From Phycomyces nitens (Eukaryota; Mucoromycota; Mucoromycetes; Mucorales; Phycomycetaceae), in assembly GCA_022702545.1 (NCBI GenBank), contig JAHRBC010000003.1, positions 3,968,001 through 4,032,000 of the forward strand: a stretch of 64,000 nt of DNA, given 5' to 3'. Positions 53,761-63,322 of the stretch are shown here, piece by piece (position 1 is the first letter of the stretch; each line of letters opens with the position of its first letter). Below the pieces are notes generated by a model. It worked only from the letters and a program-made list of their open reading frames with translations, was not told the origin of the DNA and did no database searches. Position numbers and translations under genes: made by a program.

Positions 53761-53775
53761 GTCAGTTTGTCCGAG
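53761..53775 (+). repeat. 15-bp target-site duplication: tRNA-Ser 5' fragment, outer copy
   Basis: GTCAGTTTGTCCGAG equals nucleotides 1-15 of the intact tRNA-Ser gene at 63241. It is the original 5' end of the target tRNA, cut off from the rest by the insertion. It lies at the 3' end of LINE copy A. Confidence 0.95.
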
Positions 53776-54071
53776 GTTAAAGATTATGTTTTATTGAGAG
53801 ATATAGTGCTGGCAGTCTATAGACCATTTAGCATCTCGAGAACTACTGGAAGGGAAGCAAAAAAGTCTCTTGGGCACAAGGAAGACAAAAAAAAGTAGAG
53901 AAAAATGGAGTGAGCTAACAGTACTAAGATGAAAGCTGAGCCCTACTCTCCACTTCGCAGCTGTGAAATAGTTGTAACAGTGGAAGGGAGGAGATAGGAG
54001 AACAGACAGACAACTTTTCCTGTGCGAAAAGAACTAGAAAAAGATAAAATAAAATAAAATAAAAAAAAATG

Positions 54072-57000
54072 CTAAGCAGCATGCCACAAAGCACCATGGT
54101 TCTTCTCGTGGGAGTACTCCCCATCAGGGTTGCACAATTGATCGATGTGCCAGAGAATGGTGAGCAATGGCACCCAGTATGGCGGACATGGGGCCGAGGA
54201 AGAGGAAGGGAGGGAGGAGATGGCAAAATCAATGGGATGATTCGCAGGAGAGGGAGGGATTGGGAGGGAAGCAAGGAGTTCTGATGGGATCCTAGGGCAG
54301 ATGGCGAGATGACGGCGAGAGGTGTGGTCTGTCTCACATGCACATGAACGAGGGTTTCCGGGTAGCCAACCCATTCGCCAACGAACAAGGCGACCACGTT
54401 CTACTCGGGAAGCAGGGAGGAACAGGATTGGGTCAACCCCAAGGTCAGGGCGACATGCTTGGATCAAGACTTGGGTGGTGTTGGAGAGGAAGGTGGCGAA
54501 AAGGGACACTCGACGGGAGTCAAGGTATTTTTGTACGGCGTTGATGCTACGTACGTTGAGGGAAACTGGCATATCGAGAAGGAATGGATGGTGGCTCAGC
54601 GGGACAAGGGAGGAATGGGAACGGTGGTGTTGGTGGAGGAGAGAAAGGAGACAGCGGGAAGGAAGGGTACGGGCCCGAAGGCAGAACTTGGTAACAAGGA
54701 TATCCTTGCGGAATCTCATGCTGGGTATATTACAGATGTGCTTCAACACAATAGTGGAGGACGTGGCATGCCCCCCAACTATCATGCGAAGACACTTATC
54801 TTGTATCAGTTCCAAGGCCTTGAAATCCTTTTCTAGGAGTGGGGCAATGGCCAGGCCATACTCGAACTTGGGACGGATGAACGTTCGGTATAACCGAGAG
54901 CTCAAGAGCAGAGAGAAACCAGAACGGCAGGCACCAACGGCGTGCATTGTGGCCATGGCAGCAAGGGTACCAGCTCGACGATGGGTTACAATGGAGGGGG
55001 AATGAATTCCCTTACTCCGGAACGGCATGCCAAGGTAGATAAACTCATCCACTGCAGGGAGTAACTCACCATACAGGGAGAGGGAGGGAGGAGAGTGGGA
55101 GCGGGAGTTTTGGTACACAAATGCACATTTGGATGGACTCCAACGGTAACCGAGTTCCAGAGAGTGGGCTGCGGCCAGATCCAACATTTTCTGAACGTCA
55201 GGAACGGAACCAAAAATGGCAACGTCGTCAGCAAAGAGAAGAGAGTTAATCGGCGTGGGAGAGGTGGAATCGCCAAAGTCATCCACACCTGAAGGATCCA
55301 AAAGGGCGCGATAGGAATCCAACGAGGAGGGAGAGGACGATGGGACATGGGCGGCGGATGTAGACAGAGCAACTGTGCGAAGGAGAGGCGGCAGGGAGTT
55401 GATGTAGATAGAGTATAAGTGGGGACTGAGGACTGAGCCTTGCAGTACACCTGTGGAAGGAGAGAAGGAATGGGAGGAGAAGTTGCCAAGAAGGACAGAG
55501 ATGGAGACTTCGTCAAACATGTTGACAAGGAGGCCAACGAGGGCAGGGGAGTTTGACGGCGGACAAGAGCATCCCAAATGACACGTCGGTCTACGGTGTC
55601 ATAAGCTGCCTTGATGTCAAGGAAGGCGACTACAGGGTAGCGGTTGTGGCGGCGGTAGTGGGCTTTGACAAGGTCATGCAAGCAGAGGGCCTGGTCCAGT
55701 GCTCCACGTCGGGGGCGAAATCCACCTTGTGCTACGTCCAAGGGAGGAGAGAACTTGGTGAGATCAGGCGCAATACACATCTCAAGTAATTTCCGAAGAA
55801 CAGAAGTGAGAGAGATTGGCCGATAATTGGCAGCGTCGTTTGGGTTACCCTTCTTGAAGATTGGGAAAACTTGGGCTTGGCGCCAGAGAGAGGGGACATA
55901 AGACCACTGCCAACACAGAGTGAAGAGCAGGGCAAGGAGAGGAGAGAGTTTGGACCGAACGGGCTTAAGCATTTCTGCACGGATATGGTCAGGACCCGGC
56001 GCCTTGCGGCTAGGCATAAATCGCATGTATTCTTCCACCACTGACGAATCAAATGGGGAGTCAACAGCGGCGAAAGGCAGGTGAGGAGAGGTTGATGGAG
56101 GAGGAGGAGGGCGGGAGGAAGGAAGGATGTGGCCACTATACACCGAAGCAAGGTGGTTGCACATGATGGTTGCTGCAGCAGCTGGGCCATCGTCATGTTG
56201 GAAGACATGTTTGGGTTGTCGACGCCTTTTGATCTGTTTGATCTTGGAAGTGGCCTTGGCAAAGTCACGTTCCAGAGACCTACAGAAGGCGTGCCAGGAT
56301 TGACGTTTTGCTGTCTGGACTTGTTGACGGAACTCCTGATGTGCATGTTGGTGCCGGCTCCACCAATTGATCTTGTCAATGCCACAAGCACGACGCCATT
56401 GCTTGTAACAACCATCACGATGGTCGGCTGCCGCTTGAAGGGCAGGGGTCCAGAATTTCTTCCATTTGGATGGGCGGTGAGGGCGGGTACCTATTGAACT
56501 ACTAAGAGAATCATAAATGAGTGTGTTGAAATCGTTAGTAAGGGCATCAATGGGGGGAGGAGAGGAGGGCGGGTTTTGTACAATGTCTTGCAAGGTGTTG
56601 AGGAGGGGTGTGGCGTTGAGGATGAGGGAATCGGTGTAGAGTTGAAGGACGTCTGGTTCCTTGAGGCGTGAGAGGTTCCAGAGTCGGCGGAGAGGGGGTG
56701 GAGATGGAGGGGAAGGGTCAAGGTCATAGGTGAAGGAAAGTGAAAGAAGTCGGTGGTCAGAGCCTAGGGAGAGTTCGGTTTGAATGTGGAGAGAGGGATT
56801 GGCGAAATTGGTGTTGGTGATGAATAGGTCAATGATACTGCTAATTTCGACTTCACGGCGAAAGGAAATGTAGGTGGGGGTGCAAGGAGAGAGTGAGCCA
56901 TTAAGGACAGTGAGGGATCTTTCTTCTAGCCATGCACTAAGTGCTAGGCCGCGAGAATTTGTGGCATAATCTCCAGTGATGGAACCCAAACGGGCATTGA

Positions 57001-57397
57001 AGTCCCCACAAAGGAGGGTGTCTTCAGTCAAAGGAATGTCAGAGAGAACAGAAAGGGCATCGGCAGTGGACATAGAGGGGGAGGTAAACACAAACCAATC
57101 GAAGGGTGCCAATCTTGACGGCGAGGGCATAGTTGTTGGGCATAGGGATTTGGGTGACGGTGTAAGGACAGGAAGGGAGACTAACAATGAAACTCCCATT
57201 GACCCACGGTATGTCCCAGCAACAGGGGGTCCGTACAAATGAAATTGGGACCATGATGTGAGAATACGCGCAGGTGACAGGAGCCATGTTTCTGTGATGA
57301 AGAGCATATGGAGGGACTGACAGTGGTTGAGCACGTCGTTTATGGCACGGGGTTGAAGCCCATTGGCGTTCCATAATCCTATAGAAAGCTCACTCAT
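54072..57397 (-). pseudogene. LINE copy A ORF2: endonuclease and reverse transcriptase, one frameshift
   Basis: Frame one runs 57397-54986 (open for 803 codons, correct only to about 55580). The second frame, open from 55577, carries the protein to 54072. The N-terminal APE-type endonuclease shows the expected motifs WNANGL, ITETWL, LLCGDFNARLG and LGSDHRLL. A reverse transcriptase follows: FKKGNPNDAANYRPISLTS, GFRPRRGALDQ, VVAFLDIKAAYDTVD (motif A), GVLQGSVLSPHLY (motif B) and LLFADDVAIF (motif C with the catalytic Asp pair). The C-terminus has a Cys/His cluster (CACETDHTSRRHLAIC). No RNase H domain is seen. A single frameshift lies between motifs A and B (near 55560-55580). The same break occurs in copy B, so it is inherited or a shared consensus error. 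Otherwise copy A ORF2 is open from end to end. Confidence 0.9.
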
Positions 57398-58275
57398 TCT
57401 TCCATGAGGCTGCTTGGATCGAGAGTGCGCTTTCTCTTAAACAGTTGTTCAGCATCCCCACCAAGAGCAGAACGGGGAGGCACCTCATCAGAGCTAATCC
57501 ACCCTTCTTCAACAAAGAAGTGGGCAACTGGGAGGGCAACATGGGGGCGGAGGAACTTGAGGGTCTGGAGACAACGCGCATTCTGTACTTGAATGGCAGT
57601 ATTTGCCCGCTCGTCCAGAGGGAGATCGTGGTACTTGGGGTCTGCCAAGTGTTGTGGGTCAACGGGATCAAAGTCACCAATGATCTCCACCTTGGCTCTA
57701 TTGAGTTGTGCCTCAAATTCGTCAATGAACTGGAGGTGGACCAGTATGCCAACAACTCCACGAGCAGGGAAATTAATGTCCAACAGACGAGCAGTGTCAA
57801 TACCAAGGGTGCGGAGGGAGCTACGCACTTCCCTGTGGGTAAGGCGACGGGAGCGAGGAATATAAACGTATTTATATCCAAGGGGGCCAGAGGCCGCAGT
57901 GAAAATACGCTGAGAAGCAGCAACTCGGCGTGGGGAAGGACCCTTACGGGCAGGAGGGGGGCGGTTGACGCTGGCCTTGGCAGCCCAAGTGGAGGCTTCC
58001 AATCCTGGTTCCTGGGAACTGGGATTTGGGGCGGGGTCGGAGGTTGAAACATTTGGGCTATTGCCCAGGGGAAGGGAGGTTTGAGAGGTCGTAGCCTGCT
58101 CAAGACGTTTTCGGGTGTCCGCCAATTCTGCTTGGAGGCGGTTGTTCTCGGCTTCAAGAGCCTTCACTTGGACAGCAAGCTTCTCAGTGTTGTCAAGGCG
58201 GGTCAACATGGAGGCCAAAAAAGACATGAGCTCATTTGATGCGCCTGGGATTGGGGGCATCATTGAAGATGACAT
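57394..58275 (-). CDS. LINE copy A ORF1: coiled-coil nucleic-acid-binding protein
   Basis: An intact frame of 293 residues. An N-terminal coiled coil (about residues 18-62, with heptads around KLAVQVKALEAENNRLQAEL) is followed by a Ser/Pro-rich linker. A folded domain comes next (about 110-265) with GPLGYKYVYIPRSRRL, VRSSLRTLGID and FPARGVVGILVHLQF, an RRM-like alternation of strands and helices found in fungal LINE ORF1 proteins. It lacks a CCHC zinc knuckle. By analogy with L1 ORF1 it should trimerise and coat the element RNA. Its TGA stop overlaps the ORF2 start in the sequence ATGA (57397-57394), an arrangement suited to termination-reinitiation. The translated sequence is identical in copy B. 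Confidence 0.88.
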   Translation of the reverse strand: MSSSMMPPIPGASNELMSFLASMLTRLDNTEKLAVQVKALEAENNRLQAELADTRKRLEQATTSQTSLPLGNSPNVSTSDPAPNPSSQEPGLEASTWAAKASVNRPPPARKGPSPRRVAASQRIFTAASGPLGYKYVYIPRSRRLTHREVRSSLRTLGIDTARLLDINFPARGVVGILVHLQFIDEFEAQLNRAKVEIIGDFDPVDPQHLADPKYHDLPLDERANTAIQVQNARCLQTLKFLRPHVALPVAHFFVEEGWISSDEVPPRSALGGDAEQLFKRKRTLDPSSLMEE

Positions 58276-58500
58276 CGGGAATCGGGGAAAATAAATGTCG
58301 TTCGTTTGGGCTGAAACTTGGACAGTGGGTGCTTGGACTGGTAAGCTTAATGGAAAACTTGCTACGGAGGCGGGATGGGGCGTGGTAGGCGATGGATGCG
58401 TAGTTGTTGGCAGTGTTGGTTAGGATGGATGGAAAGTTCGGTAAAATTACTATAAAAGGAAATTTTTTGGGGTAAAAAAATCCTTAAGCGAAAGAGCCGT

Positions 58501-58515
58501 GTCAGTTTGTCCGAG
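58501..58515 (+). repeat. 15-bp target-site duplication: tRNA-Ser 5' fragment, central copy
   Basis: The same 15 nt as at 53761-53775, shared between the 5' end of copy A and the 3' end of copy B. A single copy between the elements shows that the second insertion went into the tRNA gene regenerated by the first, or that the unit duplicated by recombination. Confidence 0.95.
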
Positions 58516-58813
58516 GTTAAAGATTATGTTTTATTGAGAGATATAGTGCTGGCAGTCTATAGACCATTTAGCATCTCGAGAACTACTGGAAGGGAAGCAA
58601 AAAAGTCTCTTGGGCACAAGGAAGACAAAAAAAAGTAGAGAAAAATGGAGTGAGCTAACAGTACTAAGATGAAAGCTGAGCCCTACTCTCCACTTCGCAG
58701 CTGTGAAATAGTTGTAACAGTGGAAGGGAGGAGATAGGAGAACAGACAGACAACTTTTCCTGTGCGAAAAGAACTAGAAAAAGATAAAATAAAATAAAAT
58801 AAAAAAAAAAATG

Positions 58814-61800
58814 CTAAGCAGCATGCCACAAAGCACCATGGTTCTTCTCGTGGGAGTACTCCCCATCAGGGTTGCACAATTGATCGATGTGCCAGAGAAT
58901 GGTGAGCAATGGCACCCAGTATGGCGGACATGGGGCCGAGGAAGAGGAAGGGAGGGAGGAGATGGCAAAATCAATGGGATGATTCGCAGGAGAGGGAGGG
59001 ATTGGGAGGGAAGCAAGGAGTTCTGATGGGATCCTAGGGCAGATGGCGAGATGACGGCGAGAGGTGTGGTCTGTCTCACATGCACATGAACGAGGGTTTC
59101 CGGGTAGCCAACCCATTCGCCAACGAACAAGGCGACCACGTTCTACTCGGGAAGCAGGGAGGAACAGGATTGGGTCAACCCCAAGGTCAGGGCGACATGC
59201 TTGGATCAAGACTTGGGTGGTGTTGGAGAGGAAGGTGGCGAAAAGGGACACTCGACGGGAGTCAAGGTATTTTTGTACGGCGTTGATGCTACGTACGTTG
59301 AGGGAAACTGGCATATCGAGAAGGAATGGATGGTGGCTCAGCGGGACAAGGGAGGAATGGGAACGGTGGTGTTGGTGGAGGAGAGAAAGGAGACAGCGGG
59401 AAGGAAGGGTACGGGCCCGAAGGCAGAACTTGGTAACAAGGATATCCTTGCGGAATCTCATGCTGGGTATATTACAGATGTGCTTCAACACAATAGTGGA
59501 GGACGTGGCATGCCCCCAACTATCATGCGAAGACACTTATCTTGTATCAGTTCCAAGGCCTTGAAATCCTTTTCTAGGAGTGGGGCAATGGCCAGGCCAT
59601 ACTCGAACTTGGGACGGATGAACGTTCGGTATAACCGAGAGCTCAAGAGCAGAGAGAAACCAGAACGGCAGGCACCAACGGCGTGCATTGTGGCCATGGC
59701 AGCAAGGGTACCAGCTCGACGATGGGTTACAATGGAGGGGGAATGAATTCCCTTACTCCGGAACGGCATGCCAAGGTAGATAAACTCATCCACTGCAGGG
59801 AGTAACTCACCATACAGGGAGAGGGAGGGAGGAGAGTGGGAGCGGGAGTTTTGGTACACAAATGCACATTTGGATGGACTCCAACGGTAACCGAGTTCCA
59901 GAGAGTGGGCTGCGGCCAGATCCAACATTTTCTGAACGTCAGGAACGGAACCAAAAATGGCAACGTCGTCAGCAAAGAGAAGAGAGTTAATCGGCGTGGG
60001 AGAGGTGGAATCGCCAAAGTCATCCACACCTGAAGGATCCAAAAGGGCGCGATAGGAATCCAACGAGGAGGGAGAGGACGATGGGACATGGGCGGCGGAT
60101 GTAGACAGAGCAACTGTGCGAAGGAGAGGCGGCAGGGAGTTGATGTAGATAGAGTATAAGTGGGGACTGAGGACTGAGCCTTGCAGTACACCTGTGGAAG
60201 GAGAGAAGGAATGGGAGGAGAAGTTGCCAAGAAGGACAGAGATGGAGACTTCGTCAAACATGTTGACAAGGAGGCCAACGAGGGCAGGGGAGTTTGACGG
60301 CGGACAAGAGCATCCCAAATGACACGTCGGTCTACGGTGTCATAAGCTGCCTTGATGTCAAGGAAGGCGACTACAGGGTAGCGGTTGTGGCGGCGGTAGT
60401 GGGCTTTGACAAGGTCATGCAAGCAGAGGGCCTGGTCCAGTGCTCCACGTCGGGGGCGAAATCCACCTTGTGCTACGTCCAAGGGAGGAGAGAACTTGGT
60501 GAGATCAGGCGCAATACACATCTCAAGTAATTTCCGAAGAACAGAAGTGAGAGAGATTGGCCGATAATTGGCAGCGTCGTTTGGGTTACCCTTCTTGAAG
60601 ATTGGGAAAACTTGGGCTTGGCGCCAGAGAGAGGGGACATAAGACCACTGCCAACACAGAGTGAAGAGCAGGGCAAGGAGAGGAGAGAGTTTGGACCGAA
60701 CGGGCTTAAGCATTTCTGCACGGATATGGTCAGGACCCGGCGCCTTGCGGCTAGGCATAAATCGCATGTATTCTTCCACCACTGACGAATCAAATGGGGA
60801 GTCAACAGCGGCGAAAGGCAGGTGAGGAGAGGTTGATGGAGGAGGAGGAGGGCGGGAGGAAGGAAGGATGTGGCCACTATACACCGAAGCAAGGTGGTTG
60901 CACATGATGGTTGCTGCAGCAGCTGGGCCATCGTCATGTTGGAAGACATGTTTGGGTTGTCGACGCCTTTTGATCTGTTTGATCTTGGAAGTGGCCTTGG
61001 CAAAGTCACGTTCCAGAGACCTACAGAAGGCGTGCCAGGATTGACGTTTTGCTGTCTGGACTTGTTGACGGAACTCCTGATGTGCATGTTGGTGCCGGCT
61101 CCACCAATTGATCTTGTCAATGCCACAAGCACGACGCCATTGCTTGTAACAACCATCACGATGGTCGGCTGCCGCTTGAAGGGCAGGGGTCCAGAATTTC
61201 TTCCATTTGGATGGGCGGTGAGGGCGGGTACCTATTGAACTACTAAGAGAATCATAAATGAGTGTGTTGAAATCGTTAGTAAGGGCATCAATGGGGGAGG
61301 AGAGGAGGGCGGGTTTTGTACAATGTCTTGCAAGGTGTTGAGGAGGGGTGTGGCGTTGAGGATGAGGGAATCGGTGTAGAGTTGAAGGACGTCTGGTTCC
61401 TTGAGGCGTGAGAGGTTCCAGAGTCGGCGGAGAGGGGTGGAGATGGAGGGGAAGGGTCAAGGTCATAGGTGAAGGAAAGTGAAAGAAGTCGGTGGTCAGA
61501 GCCTAGGGAGAGTTCGGTTTGAATGTGGAGAGAGGGATTGGCGAAATTGGTGTTGGTGATGAATAGGTCAATGATACTGCTAATTTCGACTTCACGGCGA
61601 AAGGAAATGTAGGTGGGGGTGCAAGGAGAGAGTGAGCCATTAAGGACAGTGAGGGATCTTTCTTCTAGCCATGCACTAAGTGCTAGGCCGCGAGAATTTG
61701 TGGCATAATCTCCAGTGATGGAACCCAAACGGGCATTGAAGTCCCCACAAAGGAGGGTGTCTTCAGTCAAAGGAATGTCAGAGAGAACAGAAAGGGCATC

Positions 61801-62137
61801 GGCAGTGGACATAGAGGGGGAGGTAAACACAAACCAATCGAAGGGTGCCAATCTTGACGGCGAGGGCATAGTTGTTGGGCATAGGGATTTGGGTGACGGT
61901 GTAAGGACAGGAAGGGGAGACTAACAATGAAACTCCCATTGACCCACGGTATGTCCCAGCAACAGGGGGTCCGTACAAATGAAATTGGGACCATGATGTG
62001 AGAATACGCGCAGGTGACAGGAGCCATGTTTCTGTGATGAAGAGCATATGGAGGGACTGACAGTGGTTGAGCACGTCGTTTATGGCACGGGGTTGAAGCC
62101 CATTGGCGTTCCATAATCCTATAGAAAGCTCACTCAT
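58814..62137 (-). pseudogene. LINE copy B ORF2, several frameshifts
   Basis: The same protein as copy A ORF2 is split into five frame blocks: 62137-61778, 61869-61288, 61466-59727, 60318-59485 and 59536-58814, with overlaps from read-through into wrong frames. Endonuclease motifs (GDFNARLG, LGSDHRLL), RT motif A (FLDIKAAYDTVD), motif B (GVLQGSVLSP) and motif C (LLFADDVAIF) are all present in the appropriate blocks. One break, between motifs A and B, is shared with copy A. Four more are private to this copy and fall at runs of G or C (near 61914, 61433, 61292 and 59513). As read, it cannot encode a working polymerase. Homopolymer sequencing error is an alternative to real decay. Confidence 0.88.
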
Positions 62138-63015
62138 TCTTCCATGAGGCTGCTTGGATCGAGAGTGCGCTTTCTCTTAAACAGTTGTTCAGCATCCCCA
62201 CCAAGAGCAGAACGGGGAGGCACCTCATCAGAGCTAATCCACCCTTCTTCAACAAAGAAGTGGGCAACTGGGAGGGCAACATGGGGGCGGAGGAACTTGA
62301 GGGTCTGGAGACAACGCGCATTCTGTACTTGAATGGCAGTATTTGCCCGCTCGTCCAGAGGGAGATCGTGGTACTTGGGGTCTGCCAAGTGTTGTGGGTC
62401 AACGGGATCAAAGTCACCAATGATCTCCACCTTGGCTCTATTGAGTTGTGCCTCAAATTCGTCAATGAACTGGAGGTGGACCAGTATGCCAACAACTCCA
62501 CGAGCAGGGAAATTAATGTCCAACAGACGAGCAGTGTCAATACCAAGGGTGCGGAGGGAGCTACGCACTTCCCTGTGGGTAAGGCGACGGGAGCGAGGAA
62601 TATAAACGTATTTATATCCAAGGGGGCCAGAGGCCGCAGTGAAAATACGCTGAGAAGCAGCAACTCGGCGTGGGGAAGGACCCTTACGGGCAGGAGGGGG
62701 GCGGTTGACGCTGGCCTTGGCAGCCCAAGTGGAGGCTTCCAATCCTGGTTCCTGGGAACTGGGATTTGGGGCGGGGTCGGAGGTTGAAACATTTGGGCTA
62801 TTGCCCAGGGGAAGGGAGGTTTGAGAGGTCGTAGCCTGCTCAAGACGTTTTCGGGTGTCCGCCAATTCTGCTTGGAGGCGGTTGTTCTCGGCTTCAAGAG
62901 CCTTCACTTGGACAGCAAGCTTCTCAGTGTTGTCAAGGCGGGTCAACATGGAGGCCAAAAAAGACATGAGCTCATTTGATGCGCCTGGGATTGGGGGCAT
63001 CATTGAAGATGACAT
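62134..63015 (-). CDS. LINE copy B ORF1: coiled-coil nucleic-acid-binding protein
   Basis: An intact 293-residue frame, identical in translation to copy A ORF1: coiled coil at about 18-62, RRM-like domain at about 110-265, no zinc knuckle. The TGA stop overlaps the ORF2 ATG as ATGA at 62137-62134, conserving the likely reinitiation site. A 225-nt 5' UTR separates its start from the tRNA gene. Confidence 0.88.
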   Translation of the reverse strand: MSSSMMPPIPGASNELMSFLASMLTRLDNTEKLAVQVKALEAENNRLQAELADTRKRLEQATTSQTSLPLGNSPNVSTSDPAPNPSSQEPGLEASTWAAKASVNRPPPARKGPSPRRVAASQRIFTAASGPLGYKYVYIPRSRRLTHREVRSSLRTLGIDTARLLDINFPARGVVGILVHLQFIDEFEAQLNRAKVEIIGDFDPVDPQHLADPKYHDLPLDERANTAIQVQNARCLQTLKFLRPHVALPVAHFFVEEGWISSDEVPPRSALGGDAEQLFKRKRTLDPSSLMEE

Positions 63016-63240
63016 CGGGAATCGGGGAAAATAAATGTCGTTCGTTTGGGCTGAAACTTGGACAGTGGGTGCTTGGACTGGTAAGCTTAATGGAAAACTT
63101 GCTACGGAGGCGGGATGGGGCGTGGTAGGCGATGGATGCGTAGTTGTTGGCAGTGTTGGTTAGGATGGATGGAAAGTTCGGTAAAATTACTATAAAAGGA
63201 AATTTTTTGGGGTAAAAAAATCCTTAAGCGAAAGAGCCGT

Positions 63241-63322
63241 GTCAGTTTGTCCGAGTGGTTAAGGAGTTAGACTTGAAATCTAATGGGCTTCGCCCGCACA
63301 GGTTCGAACCCTGTAGCTGACG
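63241..63322 (+). tRNA. tRNA-Ser (anticodon UGA), regenerated LINE target
   Basis: 82 nt fold into a complete class II tRNA. The acceptor stem GTCAGTT pairs with AGCTGAC (one G-U pair) and the discriminator base is G. The anticodon stem TTAGA/TCTAA encloses CTTGAAA, with anticodon TGA at positions 34-36. A long variable arm (GGGC-TTC-GCCC) is typical of serine tRNAs, and the T arm is ACAGG-TTCGAAC-CCTGT. There is no intron. It reads UCA codons. Internal A and B boxes for RNA polymerase III are intact and a T6 terminator follows. The first 15 nt also belong to the target-site duplication of the LINE. Everything upstream of nucleotide 1 is now LINE DNA, so the native 5' flank lies 9.5 kb away at 53760. 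Confidence 0.97.

Follow-up and report, generated by a model that had tools for sequence, protein, structure and literature searches.

Mobile elements that enter tRNA genes and leave the tRNA complete are known from bacteria: islands and prophages do so, usually at the tRNA 3' end, by means of a site-specific recombinase and a DNA intermediate. The present analysis concerns an element of another kind, a long interspersed nuclear element (LINE) found in two copies beside a tRNA-Ser(UGA) gene of the fungus Phycomyces nitens. Both copies lie in a stretch of 64,000 nucleotides (nt), here called the window (GenBank assembly GCA_022702545.1, contig JAHRBC010000003.1, positions 3,968,001 to 4,032,000). 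LINEs specific for tRNA genes have been described in other clades, among them NeSL-1_TV, in whose name TV stands for Trichomonas. NeSL-1_TV (tRNA-Pro) and the planarian elements LIN15_SM (tRNA-Arg) and LIN25_SM (tRNA-Glu) are, like the element described here, retrotransposons without long terminal repeats (LTRs) that are specific for tRNA genes, but they are related to NeSL, carry a restriction-like endonuclease and may or may not rebuild their targets (PMC4640811).

The TRE5 and TRE3 elements of Dictyostelium are LINEs of the L1 group with an apurinic/apyrimidinic endonuclease (APE) and use tRNA genes as safe sites. In this they resemble the present, apparently L1-like, element, but they insert in windows 40–54 bp upstream or 40–150 bp downstream (PMC5911963). 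No distant window of the TRE5 type is seen in P. nitens, where the 3' end of the LINE is fixed at nt 15 inside the gene. NLTR-A of Dictyostelium purpureum lies 2–6 bp ahead of the mature tRNA's first base, near the place taken here by the LINE 5' end, but it has an RNase H domain and an amoeba as host, and a cut inside the tRNA and a duplicated tRNA start go unreported in the text of the sources (PMC5006619, PMC5911963). Dewa of zebrafish is a target-specific LINE at tRNA-Leu, but in the spacer and not inside the tRNA; Dada DNA transposons do use specific sites inside tRNA and small nuclear RNA genes, but with a DDE transposase and without an RNA intermediate (PMC3706591).

Among fungi, Grem-LINE1 of Mucor is likewise L1-like, comes from Mucoromycotina and has two open reading frames (ORFs), but, compared by description, it is located at pericentromeres, and the word tRNA is absent from the main text (PMC7377519), as it is from the main text of a paper on methylation in Phycomyces (PMC11258239). 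In the Rhizopus genome, Ty3-like elements often co-localise with tRNA genes (PMC2699053), and the table of a 2018 review contains no fungal non-LTR element (PMC5911963). An earlier note on this DNA had known of no fungal LINE that inserts inside a tRNA gene and restores it. Searches of open-access papers, with subscription papers, supplements and Repbase mostly outside that scope, also yielded no fungal, APE-type, intragenic and self-restoring tRNA LINE, but as tRNA-gene-specific LINEs of other clades are in print, only the combination of features looks new.

LINE junctions at tRNA genes

We consider it very probable that the element belongs to an L1-like LINE lineage with an APE-type endonuclease which targets the tRNA gene itself, cutting between nt 15 and 16, and that its insertion rebuilds the target. 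In the window, GTCAGTTTGTCCGAG, which is nt 1–15 of tRNA-Ser(UGA), occurs three times at a spacing of 4740 nt, the last time as the start of the intact tRNA gene (Table 1). The two LINE copies are arranged head to tail with the minus strand coding, so that the LINE 5' end adjoins the tRNA.

The 49-Mb genome was searched with the LINE 3' end (best 40 of 54 candidates scored), with its 5' end (36 of 36) and with the 3' end of a sister family (best 40 of 63 candidates scored). From this, 49 junctions were obtained, 40 by the search with the window's 3' end and nine more by the sister-family search, with one row excluded (an inner piece of L077). The LINE 3' end is joined exactly to tRNA nt 1–15 at 28 of these 49 junctions, and with one or two mismatches at five more. 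Within three mismatches of any of eight tRNA 15-mers lie 33 of 49 junctions versus 6 of 107,360 background positions (window positions 1–53,700, both strands, identical test), a comparison that describes chance matching and is no independent prediction, because the eight 15-mers were recognised in this genome, mostly beside LINEs.

The tRNAs concerned are those for Ser (UGA, AGA, GCU), Leu (CAA, UAG), Ile (AAU), Thr (AGU) and Phe (GAA). Family A, the subfamily of the window, is represented by 25 3' ends of at least 86% identity. Twenty of them join nt 1–15 of tRNA-Ser (14) or tRNA-Leu (6), 19 exactly and one with two mismatches, and five lie outside tRNA genes; another 13 tRNA-sited junctions belong to families B and C. 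For Thr and Phe, the tRNA gene is found 12–21 kb from the LINE 3' end on the side expected, and a family-B 5' end stands directly at nt 1 of the tRNA-Phe gene. The earlier note had proposed one cut after nt 15, the other at the mature 5' end, and sequence-specific targeting rather than chance, and these counts support both. Its expectation that most copies abut the first 15 nt of tRNA-Ser was right about the position for family A and too narrow about the tRNA, with Leu also used by this family and Ile, Thr and Phe by its sisters. Unrelated sites, which the note had set against its proposal if they held most other copies, account for 14 of the 49 junctions.

Several further points weigh against this explanation. 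Only the scored candidates, 40 of 54 and 40 of 63, were read. Sixteen of 49 junctions lie beyond three mismatches of the eight tRNA 15-mers (L082 is tRNA-like with four mismatches, the standard 3' end is missing from L036, and unrelated sites make up the other 14), and the specificity is therefore strong, not absolute. The triplet [G/C]AG at nt 13–15 is too short to select tRNA genes, so that more contacts with the tRNA, or a host or RNA polymerase III (Pol III) factor, would be needed. Four of 14 tRNA-Ser genes found have neither a family-A LINE nor a 5' remnant of one; the other ten do, a share that may be overestimated because the query contained 40 nt of LINE and favours occupied genes. 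With a nearly LINE-free query, 3 of 6 tRNA-Leu(CAA) genes are occupied and 3 are without a LINE (2 with neither repeat, 1 with an LTR-like repeat only). A claim of full length for families B and C at tRNA genes was abandoned, as L034 and L035 may be interrupted or short. Finally, activity, nick site and RNA start are inferred from sequence.

It is very unlikely that insertion is undirected and only gene-rebuilding insertions survive selection. Selection would remove insertions that disrupt a tRNA, and part of the full-length off-target insertions may have been lost, but random survivors should be common in intergenic DNA, yet 20 of 25 family-A copies sit at the same tRNA base, and 15-nt staggers occur off target too. 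An assembly artefact or collapsed repeats can be given next to no credit: the window copies do differ in homopolymer lengths alone, like long-read consensus errors, but the junction is found again, with different flanks and on several contigs, at five isoacceptor types of Ser and Leu and at three further tRNA species.

A pattern search for the LINE 3' end followed by a tRNA start gave 19 matches, 18 of them at known copies, and 12 with the reversed control; it was set aside as weak evidence alone, and the similarity searches were relied on. No meaning was given to a likeness, seen by eye, of the LINE 3' end CTTTAAC to CTTAACC of tRNA-Ser beside the nick; the same ending is found at Ile, Thr and Phe. 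At L116 (G000:C1:9566330-9566470), L069 and L087, another LINE-like 5' end (ACTGCTCTTTC.CTTTAACATTTATTTT) adjoins a tRNA-Ile gene directly or follows the 15-nt copy of one, and this LINE is probably a further subfamily with the same tRNA habit.

Nucleotide 13, duplications and donor scars

The 20 tRNA-sited copies of family A are in tRNAs with GAG at nt 13–15 and the 13 of families B and C in tRNAs with CAG, nt 13 being G in Ser and Leu, used by one subfamily, and C in Ile, Thr and Phe, used by the other. At off-target sites, the triplet is GAG for 5 of 5 family-A copies and CAG for 8 of 9 family-B copies, the ninth having CGG. Nucleotide 13 itself is G in 5/5 and C in 9/9 (Fisher p = 0.0005; p = 0.003 when the CGG case counts against the rule). 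That nt 13 is kept outside tRNA genes favours direct reading of the DNA by the endonuclease near the nick.

Alternatively, the Pol III machinery (TFIIIB/TFIIIC on the tRNA gene) might do the targeting, as for TRE5-A and Ty3, with the endonuclease picking only the exact bond. This would fit a nick within the A-box region, the use of eight tRNA species with differing 15-mers, the LTR-like repeats which in the same genome lie at the expected Pol III start, and the interaction of TRE5 ORF1 with TFIIIB (PMC5911963). We regard it as unlikely, since the LINEs insert at one exact base, where TRE5 and TRE3 use spread windows (PMC5911963), and since nt 13 splits the subfamilies and persists at non-tRNA sites. 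A mixed mechanism, in which direct recognition is combined with Pol III factors, may apply.

At tRNA genes, the LINE 3' end joins nt 15 and a duplication of about 15 nt, made of tRNA nt 1–15, flanks the insertions. Duplications of 13–16 nt are visible at 8 of 14 off-target copies as well (the remaining six show none or an unclear one), and from this like size the stagger of about 15 nt seems to be a property of the enzyme; healing of the tRNA would follow from a nick placed 15 nt from its start. Among family-A 5' ends (at least 96% identity, n = 25), 12 adjoin an intact tRNA with 0–13 nt between, four stand beside the 15-nt copy at a neighbouring LINE and nine behind an LTR-like repeat. Together with the duplications, the intact tRNAs uphold the earlier proposal that the gene is restored after insertion. 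The bodies of tRNA-Ser(AGA) are identical in 7 of 8 genes read (five occupied, two empty), and the eighth, occupied, differs by one base; the tRNA-Leu(CAA) bodies agree in 5 of 6 genes, with a one-base difference in one that is occupied.

All 20 tRNA-sited family-A copies have a matching 5' end. Seventeen are contiguous (4712–4729 bp), and three, with ends spaced 5.3, 11.1 and 11.3 kb apart, are taken from this spacing to be interrupted. The off-target copies of family A, in contrast, measure only 65–226 nt in 5 of 5 cases (Fisher p = 1.9e-5), and in 9 of 9 off-target family-B copies the match is shorter than about 250 nt. Some 5' ends (e.g. C5:5368299) are without a counterpart among the scored 3' ends. 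Four of the nine off-target family-B copies start at about one place (CCCAGTACTGTTAGC; L098–L101 with L072–L075), which might be a truncation hotspot or a short non-autonomous element.

Extra nucleotides at some 5' junctions give an idea about the origin of the copies. On contig C9, a LINE in tRNA-Ser(AGA) is separated from the tRNA by 13 extra nt, AGTGGTTTGGCCG, which are nt 1–13 of tRNA-Leu(UAG). They occur three times in the genome, namely in tRNA-Leu(UAG) at C5:5690130, in the duplicate across its resident LINE at C5:5694871 and in the scar at C9:143145 (a control pattern gave one match). This distribution points to the C5 LINE, or an identical lost sister, as donor, and to an RNA start inside the antisense of the donor tRNA gene. 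The 12 extra nt at L055 on C4 are identical to the terminal nucleotides of LTR-like repeats beside other LINE copies; shorter extras are GGAC at L045, L046 and L049, G at L048 and T at L041, the last of which fits the native flank. The LINE RNA would thus start 8–13 nt upstream of the element, at a place that appears to be set by sequence within the LINE.

Target-primed reverse transcription is established LINE biology and underlies the steps proposed here. The endonuclease would nick the tRNA-sense strand between nt 15 and 16 (D arm/A box), after [G/C]AG, the 3'-OH of nt 15 would prime reverse transcription of the LINE RNA, and the second cut, in the other strand, would fall some 15 nt distant at the mature 5' end, with fill-in yielding the duplication. 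With a stagger just as long as the stretch from nt 1 to the nick, the tRNA left behind would get nt 1–15 back and be complete, and the LINE, in opposite orientation, would form its new 5' flank. Such a rebuilt gene would be a fresh target, so that insertions stack outward with the youngest nearest the tRNA. Each subfamily keeps to one set of tRNAs according to nt 13, with G in Ser and Leu and C in Ile, Thr and Phe, and, judging from the scars, the LINE RNA would start up to about 13 nt upstream, in donor tRNA or LTR-like sequence. A donor tag that matches the target might help to complete the 5' junction, which would account for full 5' ends at tRNA sites and not off target. Taken jointly, direct reading of the A-box region, the nt 13 split, the healing stagger, time-ordered outward arrays and a donor tag permitting full-length insertion are put forward tentatively, as quite possible though not yet probable. 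With the same reserve, healing insertion would extend even to the sole tRNA-Leu(UAG) gene detected.

Arrays, LTR-like repeats and occupancy

The two window copies show no substitution and five homopolymer-length indels across 4725 nt, and without substitutions the pair alone fits two insertions or one insertion with tandem duplication equally well. Arrays elsewhere in the genome can separate these. Three successive LINEs stand at tRNA-Leu(CAA) on C4, in the array at C4:7999823-8014024. On C1, LINEs and LTR-like repeats take turns at tRNA-Ser(AGA), the repeats having entered the LINE that follows within its first bases. Seven arrays have members that differ in identity, and in 7 of 7 the inner copy resembles the window element no less than its outer neighbour does; here, copies were assigned to an array by position and orientation, and closeness to the window copy serves only as a proxy for age. 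The differing members and nested LTR-like repeats support re-use of the same site, as the earlier note had claimed from the window pair, which alone is not decisive.

Unequal crossing-over might instead have produced the arrays, and above all the window pair, by tandem duplication. The identical borders and absence of substitutions in the window agree with this, as do the same four extra nt at the 5' junctions of L045 and L046 in the C4 array, but the third C4 copy, about 98% identical over its 3' 1.7 kb, is without those four nt. Other arrays combine copies of unequal identity with LTR-like repeats between them, and first insertions lie at different tRNA genes with unique flanks. Tandem duplication is a serious, if doubtful, alternative to repeated insertion, and it may apply to the window pair itself.

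The LTR-like repeats run from TGACAC...GTGTTGT to ...CACGCGTCA, with 4-nt duplications such as CTTT, GCTC and ACGG; they are called LTR-like from their TG...CA ends and these duplications, not from coding sequence. They begin 9–13 nt upstream of the tRNA in all 11 repeat-bearing tRNA genes read and lie 7–12 nt beyond the 15-nt copy in 22 of 37 3' flanks. Often they are found within the first bases of a LINE, which resembles a Ty3-like choice of the Pol III start in this genome. At least two are situated on LINE-rebuilt tRNA-Ser genes (L054, L093), an indication that genes may go on attracting Pol III factors after rebuilding.

The sole tRNA-Leu(UAG) gene detected in the genome is occupied by a LINE. 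Among 11 tRNA-Ile(AAU) genes, two touch a LINE, three have a LINE-like remnant before an LTR-like repeat, four have an LTR-like repeat without clear remnant, and two have neither. The statement that all tRNA-Ser(GCU) genes are occupied was abandoned, because the query with 40 nt of LINE is biased to occupied genes.

The tRNA searches also gave a 73-nt match with a uniform 65.1 bits, which in 12 of 13 cases lies about 4–40 kb from a contig end (the length of C11 was not seen), as if it were part of a subtelomeric repeat. These matches are at C1:9938416, C4:4394, C4:8928401, C5:22648, C5:8031694, C6:6554068, C7:5287, C8:19014, C8:3718469, C9:13199, C10:2199162 and C11:28724, with the thirteenth at C5:4736575. 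On contig C2, tRNA matches recur with a period of about 66.9 kb, and C2 is possibly a multimer of a small, possibly mitochondrial, genome.

Coding regions and implications

Table 1. Features of the LINE and tRNA-Ser locus in the window, and loci of LTR-like repeats in the genome
Feature	Position	Strand	Remarks
Outer GTCAGTTTGTCCGAG copy	53761..53775	+	tRNA-Ser nt 1–15; left border of LINE copy 1
LINE copy 1	53776..58500	-	4725 nt; 3' end 53776, 5' end 58500
ORF2 copy 1, second frame	54072..55577	-	501 aa; second half of reverse transcriptase (LLFADD) and C-terminal part
ORF2 copy 1, first frame	54986..57397	-	803 aa; APE-type endonuclease and first half of reverse transcriptase
ORF1 copy 1	57394..58275	-	293 aa; stop overlaps ORF2 start (ATGA)
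Middle GTCAGTTTGTCCGAG copy	58501..58515	+	tRNA-Ser nt 1–15; separates both LINEs
LINE copy 2	58516..63240	-	4725 nt; 5' end (ACGGCTC...) adjoins tRNA gene
ORF2 region copy 2	58814..61869	-	several frames (58814-59536, 59485-60318, 59727-61466, 61288-61869)
ORF1 copy 2	62134..63015	-	293 aa
Intact tRNA-Ser(UGA), rebuilt target	63241..63322	+	Rfam; putative nick between 63255 (nt 15) and 63256 (nt 16)
LTR-like repeat loci			L009, L010, L018-L027, L032, L035, L054, L056-L063, L093, L095, L108-L114, L117

The tRNA-Ser(UGA) gene was also found by ARAGORN, one base wider on each side than in Rfam. Two full-length LINEs with 15-nt tRNA-Ser borders had been described for this locus in the earlier note. 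Borders and lengths stand, but in the assembly the ORF2 of either copy is spread over more than one frame, so that full-length refers to nucleotide length and not to an intact reading frame. The difference in homopolymer lengths alone suggests that some of these frame breaks are sequencing or consensus errors of the assembly.

A Pfam scan gave no match for ORF1 of copy 1. In ORF2, an APE-type endonuclease is N-terminal (PF14529, E 2.8e-11; PF03372, E 4.5e-9), ahead of RVT_1, which is spread over two frames (profile positions 4–99 and 107–204). When both ORF2 pieces of copy 1 were scanned with Pfam, no RNase H family was found, and a search by Pfam only found no restriction-like endonuclease, the APE-type being present instead. 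Against solved structures, a single ORF2 sequence did not separate L1 from R2; a profile of nine relatives separated them better, with LINE-1 ORF2p best (1.2e-32), followed by 8gh6, a 'Reverse transcriptase-like protein' (9.9e-23), and R2 chains (6e-19). By its nearest structure, rather than by a clade tree, the element may be placed with the L1-like LINEs.

Among the ORF2 matches listed (best 120 of 226), the closest relative is from Phycomyces nitens, with 92% identity over 61% of the query; the others include many from Mucorales and from unnamed metagenome sources, those of Mucor having 41–54% identity. Twenty of 24 ORF1 relatives are named Phycomyces. A search of viral and genome contigs with the nine-protein ORF2 alignment gave no relatives with readable DNA beyond the present genome. 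No claim is made for a TATA-like motif that was noticed, by eye alone, in the LINE 5' end.

If the proposed explanation is true, this retrotransposon occupies important, even single-copy, genes without destroying them, as the geometry of its cuts repairs the damage. Its lineage would provide natural APE endonucleases with two specificities, cutting after GAG or after CAG at the same tRNA position, and the choice of target could be studied by one-base swaps. Ordered arrays would give relative insertion dates, and donor scars would tie copies to their source gene and hint at the start of the LINE RNA. For gene delivery, too, integration that heals itself at transcribed genes would be of practical interest.

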